Assembly (NCBI GenBank): GCA_003215545.1
Contig: QCKF01000006.1
Span: forward strand, 1-57,450
Direction of reading: 5' to 3'
DNA from: Prochlorococcus sp. AG-409-L14
Lineage (GTDB): Bacteria; Cyanobacteriota; Cyanobacteriia; PCC-6307; Cyanobiaceae
Length of the DNA stretch: 57,450 bases
Below are positions 19,422 through 23,201 of this stretch, piece after piece. Position 1 is the stretch's first letter. Every line of letters begins with the position of its first letter. The translations under genes were made by a program, and so were the position numbers. The notes under the pieces were generated by a model. That model searched no databases. It had not been told where the DNA came from and saw only the letters and a program-made list of their open reading frames with translations.

Positions 19422-19919
19422 ATGGAAGAAGAGTCCAAAACACCCTCTATTAGTGAGGAAACAAATAGTCCAAAACCTGAGGCTCCAAAAGGCACTGAGG
19501 TTAATTCCGCAAGTGAGCCTAAAGCTGCTGCAGCAAAAAGTCCTGCCATAGCCACACAGAAAATTTCTGGTGCAGAACTAATTCGTGAATTCGAGGCTTC
19601 TCAGGAAAAAACAGATTTACCAGAAATCTATGTGGGAGATACCGTTCGAGTAGGAGTTCGAATTAGTGAAGGGAATAAAGAGCGAGTTCAGCCTTATGAA
19701 GGCGTGGTGATTTCAAAACGACATGGAGGTTTAAATGAAACCATTACTGTTAGACGAATTTTTCAAGGTATTGGGGTTGAGAGAGTATTCATGCTTCATA
19801 GCCCCCAAGTAGCTTCTATCAAGGTTGAACGTCGAGGTAAAGTAAGAAGAGCGAAGCTTTTCTATCTGCGGGACCGAGTGGGGAAAGCCACTCGAGTAAA
19901 GCAGCGCTTCGATCGTTGA
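19422..19919 (+). CDS. rplS: 50S ribosomal protein L19
   Basis: 165 residues from the ATG of [13 protein letters not shown]; a TTG four codons upstream is the alternative. The conserved L19 core begins near residue 50 ([13 protein letters not shown]) and includes [39 protein letters not shown] and [20 protein letters not shown] at the end. The first 45 residues form an acidic, Ala/Pro/Lys-rich extension absent from the roughly 115-residue enterobacterial protein; such tails occur in cyanobacterial L19. It heads a translation cluster: tRNA-Trp, PSHCP, tRNA-Asp and gltX follow on the same strand. Confidence 0.96.
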
Positions 19920-19984: not shown

Positions 19985-20057
19985 GCGCCGTTAGTTCAGT
20001 TGGTAGAACGCAGGTCTCCAAAACCTGATGTCGGGGGTTCGAGTCCTCCACGGCGCG
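19985..20057 (+). tRNA. trnW: tRNA-Trp (CCA)
   Basis: A complete 73-base cloverleaf: acceptor stem GCGCCGT/ACGGCGC with discriminator G, D-arm GTTC..GAAC, anticodon stem CAGGT/ACCTG with loop CTCCAAA (anticodon CCA at 20018-20020), and T-arm GGGGG TTCGAGT CCTCC. CCA is not encoded. It sits 65 bases after rplS and 36 bases before the PSHCP start. Confidence 0.97.
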
Positions 20058-20093
20058 TCCGATGACCCTTATTGCAGTTTCCTAGTTTTAATA

Positions 20094-20282
20094 ATGGAGT
20101 TGGATCTTCAACCTGGTGATGTCGTGAAGGTACTCGAGTCCGCCGCTCTCGGTTGGGTCCGAGCACGAGTAATAAGAGTGAAATCTGGCGGACGAGTGGT
20201 CGTTCAAAGCGATCAAGGGCGTGAATTCACCGCTCGAGGAAATCAAGTACGGCTTATTGAACCCGCTGGATTTCGCCCATAA
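20094..20282 (+). CDS. Hyper-conserved picocyanobacterial protein PSHCP (62 aa)
   Basis: The ATG at 20094 gives exactly 62 residues, MELDLQPGDVVKVLESAALG ... ending IEPAGFRP. I recognise this as the Prochlorococcus/Synechococcus hyper-conserved protein, reported as identical in sequence across the clade and without homologues outside it. Published work, as I recall it, detected association with ribosomal protein L2, PsaD and a Ycf48-like protein and proposed a ribosome-linked role. The sequence is short, beta-rich in pattern (alternating VVKVLE, WVRARVIRVK, GRVVVQSD, VRLIEP), strongly basic in the middle and consistent with an SH3-like barrel. It lies between two tRNA genes within a translation cluster. 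A longer upstream frame running through the tRNA is not coding. Confidence 0.93.
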   Translation: MELDLQPGDVVKVLESAALGWVRARVIRVKSGGRVVVQSDQGREFTARGNQVRLIEPAGFRP

Positions 20283-20546: not shown

Positions 20547-21977
20547 TTGACTGTGAGAGTAAGGCTGGCTCCTAGCCCGACAGGAAAACTACATATAGGT
20601 ACAGCAAGAACTGCTCTCTTTAACTGGCTTTTTGCCTTTCACGAGAAAGGTCAATTCCTTCTTCGAATCGAAGACACAGACAAAGAAAGATCTAAAACTG
20701 AATTCACTACAAATATTCTGGAAGGTCTTGAATGGCTTGGAATCAATTGGACTGAATCACCAGTTTTACAAAGCTCTCAAATACAAAAACATAAAGATGC
20801 AATCCAACTCTTATTAGATAGAGGGCTTGCCTATCGCTGTTATGCGACTGAAGAAGAACTTGAAGAAATGAGGTCTCAACAAAAAGCAAAGGGTGAGGCA
20901 CCTCGTTACGACAACCGATACAGAGATCTAAGTGCTGAAGAACAATCCAAATTCCACCAGGAAGGGAAAACAGCAGTTGTACGTTTTCGCATAGATGATC
21001 TATCAGTAATTTCTTGGAATGATCTAATTCGAGGTCAAATAAATTGGCACGGTGAAGATCTAGGAGGTGACATGGTCATCGCGAGAAGGGCCCCAGCCGA
21101 CGAAATAGGAGACCCTTTATACAATCTAGCTGTTGTAGTTGATGACTCTTCGATGGAGATATCGCACGTTATTCGAGGCGAAGACCATATAGCAAATACA
21201 GCCAAACAAATTCTTTTATATAAAGCACTAGGCCTAAGCATTCCAATCTTTGCTCATACACCCTTAATACTTAACCAAGAAGGAAAAAAGCTTTCAAAAA
21301 GAGATGGTGTTACCTCTATAAGTGAGTTCAAAAGCATGGGATATACATCAGAAGCATTAGCAAATTATATGACCTTACTAGGATGGTCTGTTCCTGAAGG
21401 CATGGAAGAAAGGTTCACCATTCAAGAAGTAGGTTCAGTATTTGGTTTTGATCGTGTAAATAAAGCTGGTGCAAAATTTGACTGGGACAAATTGAATTGG
21501 CTTAATTCTCAAGTAATACATAACTTGCCTCCTCAATCATTATTAGAAAGGCTATTACCCCTTTGGGAGAAAAAAGGCTGGAAAATCTCTTCGAACGAAT
21601 GGGGACTAGACCTTGTCTCTTTAATTGGACCATCATTAACATTATTAAATGATGGTATCGATCAAGCATTTCCATTTTTTGAGACGCCGCCACTTCTAGA
21701 AGATGGTAAGAATCAATTGCAAAGTGAAAACTCATCTAAAGCACTTGAATCACTTTCAAAACAACTAGAGGTAAATCCTTGGGATGGGTACAATACAGAA
21801 TTTGCGAAGGACATCTTGAAAACAGCAGCAGAATCTATTGATATAAAGAAAGGAGTATTAATGAAAAGCCTAAGAGCTTCTCTTTTAGGTACTTTAAATG
21901 GACCTGATTTAATAACCAGCTGGGGACTACTTGCTCGAATCGGTAAGGATAGAGAAAGACTCCTTTCCAATATTTGA
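20547..21977 (+). CDS. gltX: Glutamate-tRNA ligase
   Basis: A 476-residue class I aminoacyl-tRNA synthetase charging tRNA-Glu, also the entry to tetrapyrrole synthesis in cyanobacteria. The HIGH-type motif is [17 protein letters not shown] (about residues 7-23), [12 protein letters not shown] follows, and the KMSKS-type motif is KKLSKRDGV (about 250-258). I placed the start at TTG 20547 ([10 protein letters not shown]); a frame reading back into tRNA-Asp is not coding. No zinc-binding insert is evident. The last 51 bases overlap the 3' end of the convergent antiporter gene. Confidence 0.96.
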
Positions 21978-23201
21978 GCTTTCATTTAACTCCTCTTTTT
22001 TAAGATTATCTTTTTCTAAAAGGCCTAGAAATTTAGCCAAAGGCTGTGCGGTTAAACCTTGAATTCCAACGGTCATTAAGATAGTGAGAAAAACGAGTCC
22101 TTGAAGACGACCAGCACCCAATACGCCTGCTTGCTCTAGTCGAATAGAAAATAATGAAGCTACAGCAGCTGTAACGATACCCCTAGGGGCAAGCCATCCA
22201 AGAAATAGCTTTTGTCTTATATCAAGAGGCAATCCAATAGTGGCAAGGCTAACAGCAACAGGGCGAACAATAATCATCAAAGAAAGAACACAAGACACTC
22301 CTCCCCATCCCAAAGGACTTAGTTCTCCCCAAGAAACATCTGCTGCAAGTAACGGGAAAAGCATTGTTATCGCTAATTGAGCAAGCTCTCTTATCAACGG
22401 ATCAAGTTGACTTGCTTGAGACGAAGGCCTCCTTCCAACAACAAACCCTGCAGCAACCGAGGCAGGAAGTCCAGACTCAGGCAATAGCCATTCACAAGAA
22501 CCATAAAGAAGAAAAAGTACTCCAATAGTTAGCTGCAATCGCAAGCCAAGTGATGAGCTTTTATCAACACGCTTCAAACCCTCTGAAAGAATCCACCCAC
22601 CAAAAACACCTATCAAAACTCCTCCTCCAAGTCTTGCAAACAAACCGAGTGCAAGCTCTCTTAATCCATGCAAATCTCCTACCAATAATTCCAAAAGCAG
22701 CAAGGCTAATACTGCTCCTATGGGCTCTAGAACAAGTCCCTCTGCCTCAAGTACGTCACCAAGTGGAGAGGCAAGCCTTATTTGTTGAACTAATGGAGTA
22801 ACAACAGTTGGACCAGTAGCCAAAACTATGGCGCTATAAACAGCAGCTACTGACCAACCCAAACCAGCCAACCAATGTGCAGCAATTAATCCAGCAGCAA
22901 GTGAAACGACAAGTCTTATTAAAGAGATTCTTAAAACAGTTGCCTTTATTGTGTCCCCTGGAAGACGTAAGTTCAATCCTCCATCAAAAAGGACAAGGCT
23001 TACCAATAAGCCAACTATCGTTTCCAACCCTTGTCCTAAGTCCAAGGGTTCAACTAAACCAAGTCCTGATCGACCTATCAAAAGCCCGGAAAGCAATAAA
23101 AGGACAACTCCTGGAAGGCCAGATAAAGCCGCCAAAAGTCTTGCCCCCGCTCCCGCGAAAACGGTGATACCCCAAAGCAGACCTAGCCGCTCAGGTGTCA
23201 T
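21927..23201 (-). CDS. Cation/proton antiporter, CPA family
   Basis: A 424-residue membrane protein with about twelve helices in the Na+/H+ exchanger domain. The helix with [19 protein letters not shown] (about residues 127-145) and the following [20 protein letters not shown] (about 150-169) take the place of the CPA1 TDP and ND motifs. I recall a branch of the family with TGPT and DPIGA, so this could be a regular variant with Asp to Glu. It probably exports Na+ or K+ against protons; ion and direction are unknown. Its 3' end overlaps gltX by 51 bases, and its start codon falls within a 9-bp inverted repeat. Confidence 0.85.

Follow-up and report, generated by a model that had tools for sequence, protein, structure and literature searches.

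What does a protein of only 62 residues, encoded between two tRNA genes, do for the cell? The question is raised by positions 20094-20282 of a 57,450-nucleotide stretch of Prochlorococcus sp. AG-409-L14 (contig QCKF01000006.1; the whole analysed stretch is hereafter called the window). The plus-strand frame at these positions is translated into MELDLQPGDVVKVLESAALGWVRARVIRVKSGGRVVVQSDQGREFTARGNQVRLIEPAGFRP, followed by a stop codon, and the gene is the already described pshcp, encoding the Prochlorococcus/Synechococcus hyper-conserved protein (PSHCP), in its known place. Residues 1-56 were identical to PDB chain 6nnb_A (E 2.4e-31), released in 2019 under the title "Solution structure of the Tudor domain of PSHCP", and all 62 residues were identical in at least 80 loci (80 of the 80 returned from GTDB genomes). 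Owing to these two identities, the frame is not a chance one. The identification offered by an earlier note on this DNA was thus confirmed, including by the full-length alignment that the note had proposed. The protein of PMC4215834 and PDB 6nnb has the same sequence, length, gene order, and clade, with nothing that differs; length, gene order, and clade are described in PMC4215834, where the transcript was also detected and translation was documented by immunoblot quantification in three strains, none of them the present one. The protein and its place being known, the window supplies a further identical copy. What the comparison contributes is a wider survey of conservation and gene order, and with it a putative ancestral layout of the locus and a measurable constraint at the mRNA start; the last two may go beyond the known account.

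PSHCP is a small barrel of the Tudor/SH3-like type, built of five strands and carrying a short flexible tail. The SH3-like fold anticipated from the sequence was borne out by the solved structure, named a Tudor domain, and by the AlphaFold2 model, which is a five-stranded barrel with a predicted local distance difference test (pLDDT) score of 85.7. Foldseek ranked 6nnb first, ahead of Tudor domains and others of the SH3-like type. At the sequence level, Pfam families of the SH3/Tudor-like kind gave weak matches, SH3_1 scoring 22.0 bits against a gathering cut-off of 22.9, and NCBIfam and PHROGs gave nothing meaningful. Eukaryotic Tudor domains (TDRD3, PHF20, and others) have the same small barrel (Foldseek template modelling score of about 0.7-0.79, with about 20-27% identity), but they read methylated arginine or lysine within larger proteins, whereas PSHCP has no known ligand of this kind; sequence homology between them is not established, and likeness of fold does not show a common function. 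Since Trp21, Phe45, and Phe60 are the only aromatic residues of PSHCP, a complete methyl-reading aromatic cage looks unlikely.

Matches to pshcp were found in 363 of the 400 species genomes of the picocyanobacterial family and in 247 of the 251 good ones. The claim of hyper-conservation across the clade therefore stands, although the conservation is not absolute, as residues 61-62 and single sites vary. Thirty-four family matches were less than perfect, as counted from E-values; 30 of these were fetched, among them two fragments cut by contig ends (G298 and G253). Deviations were concentrated at residues 61-62, and residues 4-60 were nearly unchanging, with single substitutions such as V13A, K12R, L54M, R25S, R43S, and I55N and, in genus g9, V10L and L19M. 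In this genus and one further genome, residues 1-2 were not kept, so that the start is necessarily Met3, and many Prochlorococcus copies carried a C-terminal QK extension. Lys30 was invariant across all fetched full-length copies. The DNA of pshcp diverged by 21% on average (maximum 35%) while the protein stayed constant, and most third codon positions used nearly all synonyms; because third positions vary freely and residues hardly change, selection acts on the protein and, as judged from the aligned copies, amounts to extreme purifying selection. At the same loci, average identity to the window was 77% for rplS (62.6-100% among orthologues) and 65% for gltX (52.7-100%). Although the genomes of these most abundant of photosynthetic organisms are otherwise strongly divergent, PSHCP ranks among their most conserved proteins.

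These properties are best explained if PSHCP is a clade-specific, translation-associated RNA- or tRNA-binding barrel, a reading to which we assign a probability of about 65% and under which PSHCP would have a role in protein synthesis. The RNA-binding nature suggested in the earlier note holds, as does the uncertainty that it expressed about function, and the protein is basic in character. Ribosomal protein L2 was pulled down with PSHCP in all three strains, pshcp expression parallels that of translation genes under nitrogen and phosphorus stress, and the gene is co-transcribed with tRNA-Trp (PMC4215834). According to the proposed mechanism, the barrel would contact structured RNA with its basic face, the likeliest ligands being tRNA and/or rRNA near L2, and PSHCP would be an accessory that the translation machinery of this clade alone possesses, indispensable since the family ancestor. 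Its mRNA would be freed in part from a longer transcript as the flanking tRNAs are processed, and would be translated without a Shine-Dalgarno (SD) sequence from an unstructured start. A 2019 paper in J Biol Chem reportedly described the structure of PSHCP, to which the PDB title also testifies, and a preference for tRNA, bound by a patch centred on Lys30.

Several points weigh against this reading. The same pull-down also brought down two other partners, PsaD and a Ycf48-like protein, which point elsewhere (PMC4215834). The adjacency of rplS and tRNA-Trp predates pshcp, so that the rplS neighbour is weak evidence for a role in translation. In addition, small basic proteins bind RNA non-specifically, and we know of no PSHCP knock-out, ribosome-bound structure, or in vivo tRNA partner.

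PSHCP might instead be a true clade-specific ribosomal protein located near L2 and stabilising 23S rRNA helices, its in vitro tRNA binding being a by-product. This is rather unlikely, as no ribosome structure showing PSHCP was found and its reported tRNA affinity offers an alternative. In its favour, PMC4215834 puts forward the association with L2 and those 23S substitutions near L2 that are non-compensatory, and PSHCP abundance is of the same order as that of RbcL. Somewhat less likely still is a main role in linking ribosomes to photosystem assembly via PsaD and the Ycf48-like factor: both partners came from lysate pull-downs with bait protein, with one to four unique peptides for the two, and PSHCP, for which the search outside the family gave no homologue, is not needed for photosystem assembly in other cyanobacteria.

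The search of 386 genomes drawn from the phylum gave no convincing PSHCP homologue (best E at least 0.003), and no phage-borne pshcp was found in phages or IMG/VR. Weak tblastn matches outside the family were rejected as chance ones, the frames of about 580 residues being NadB, those of 243 residues KdsB, and the others inspected likewise unrelated. PSHCP thus appears to be restricted to the picocyanobacterial family. Where pshcp sits, most outgroup cyanobacteria have the order rplS - tRNA-Trp - secE - nusG, and the relatively close outgroups G435, G735, and G728 (loci L177, L203, and L206) have rplS - tRNA-Trp - tRNA-Asp, with a gap of about 125-205 nucleotides between the tRNA genes and nothing homologous to pshcp inside it. 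The nusG gene was located elsewhere in the five genomes checked, including that of the window. The arrangement of the three close outgroups may mark the state before pshcp appeared, and the gene order suggests that secE-nusG left, tRNA-Asp arrived, and pshcp then arose between the tRNA genes. The NusG/Spt5 KOW and L19 barrels are also SH3-like and RNA-associated, with genes now or formerly beside the locus, but have no significant sequence similarity to PSHCP. Derivation of PSHCP from either is very improbable: the outgroup order rplS-trnW-secE-nusG, archaeal Spt5 as the second Foldseek match, and a local GD.(V/I).VL similarity speak for NusG, but neither z-scores nor profile comparison support such a source (shuffle z-scores mostly 0.9-2.7 for NusG, with one sequence at 3.6 and one at -0.3, and 0.2 for L19; hhalign probability 2.7% for NusG KOW, not significant), and the closest relatives with adjacent trnW and trnD are already devoid of nusG there.

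The start of the pshcp mRNA is conserved in a manner distinct from the rest of the gene. Excess synonymous homozygosity reached 0.52 in codons 2-8, the values being 0.10 over the remainder of pshcp and 0.12 at the gltX start. Codons 2-8 retained particular synonyms even though base composition differed widely among the genomes; codon 2 was GAG in 80 of 80 genomes with a third-position GC of 0.20-0.35. The leader between tRNA-Trp and the start codon measured 32-49 nucleotides across relatives, and no SD-like tetramer preceded pshcp in 158 of 168 loci. In 90% of 144 sequences, the start was less structured than its synonymous variants; a conserved hairpin was rejected, as the start was less, not more, structured than expected. 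As the sequences are related, none of these tests is independent, yet the contrast within pshcp is clear. By these measurements, the leader and codons 2-8 show RNA-level constraint, and the region is likely an open, SD-independent initiation region. It is unlikely that the two together form a conserved RNA element, SD-less and unstructured, that is excised when the flanking tRNAs are processed and may be regulated by PSHCP itself through binding to tRNA or to its own leader; the processing and feedback are speculative. At the neighbouring 3' end of rplS, several synonyms among the last 28 codons (window 19836-19919) were nearly fixed family-wide, e.g., GGT at -27, AAG at -21, and CGC at -4. 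Alignment folding of this rplS end was no better than that of shuffles and gave no support for a conserved RNA fold; codon bias may account for the fixation, as may a hidden signal that serves tRNA-Trp downstream.

The coordinates (Table 1) confirmed the placement between tRNA-Trp and tRNA-Asp beside rplS and gltX. As the earlier note had remarked, longer frames run through the tRNA genes: the pshcp frame is open upstream to an ATG at 20028 within tRNA-Trp, giving an alternative of 84 residues, and further open frames of 49-106 residues overlap the tRNA genes. The start at 20094 is supported, since family-wide identity begins there and the leader before it varies.

Table 1. Features of the pshcp locus in the window.
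Feature	Position	Strand	Basis
rplS, ribosomal protein L19, ATG at 19422	19422..19919	+	Open reading frame; orthologues in same position
tRNA-Trp, CCA anticodon	19984..20060	+	ARAGORN; Rfam RF00005
Leader, tRNA-Trp end to pshcp start codon, 33 nucleotides	20061..20093	+	Spacing; partial sequence conservation
pshcp coding sequence, 62 residues and stop, Tudor/SH3-like barrel	20094..20282	+	Translation; 6nnb identity; family survey
pshcp codons 2-8, unusually fixed synonymous codons	20097..20117	+	Excess synonymous homozygosity
tRNA-Asp, GTC anticodon	20451..20526	+	ARAGORN; Rfam RF00005
gltX, glutamyl-tRNA synthetase, GTG start	20553..21977	+	Open reading frame; orthologues in same position

The order rplS - tRNA-Trp - pshcp - tRNA-Asp - gltX was complete in 153 loci, with others cut by contig ends, and was kept wherever a contig spans the locus, once with an inserted gene. 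The apparent break in this last case (L158) was an insertion that separates pshcp from tRNA-Asp, with gltX next after the latter. By eye, the insert (L158 / L216, genome G048) resembles an NAD(P)H-dependent flavin mononucleotide (FMN) reductase. True loss of pshcp was rejected in the six genomes examined: their lack of the gene is an assembly gap, since rplS is either missing too (G167, G099, G229, and G039) or runs to the end of its contig (G181 and G150). One contig labelled as a Bifidobacterium breve metagenome-assembled genome (L076) bears the picocyanobacterial locus, so its label or binning is wrong. On the minus strand 3' of gltX (window 21927-23201), a large hydrophobic frame resembles, by eye, a cation/proton antiporter.
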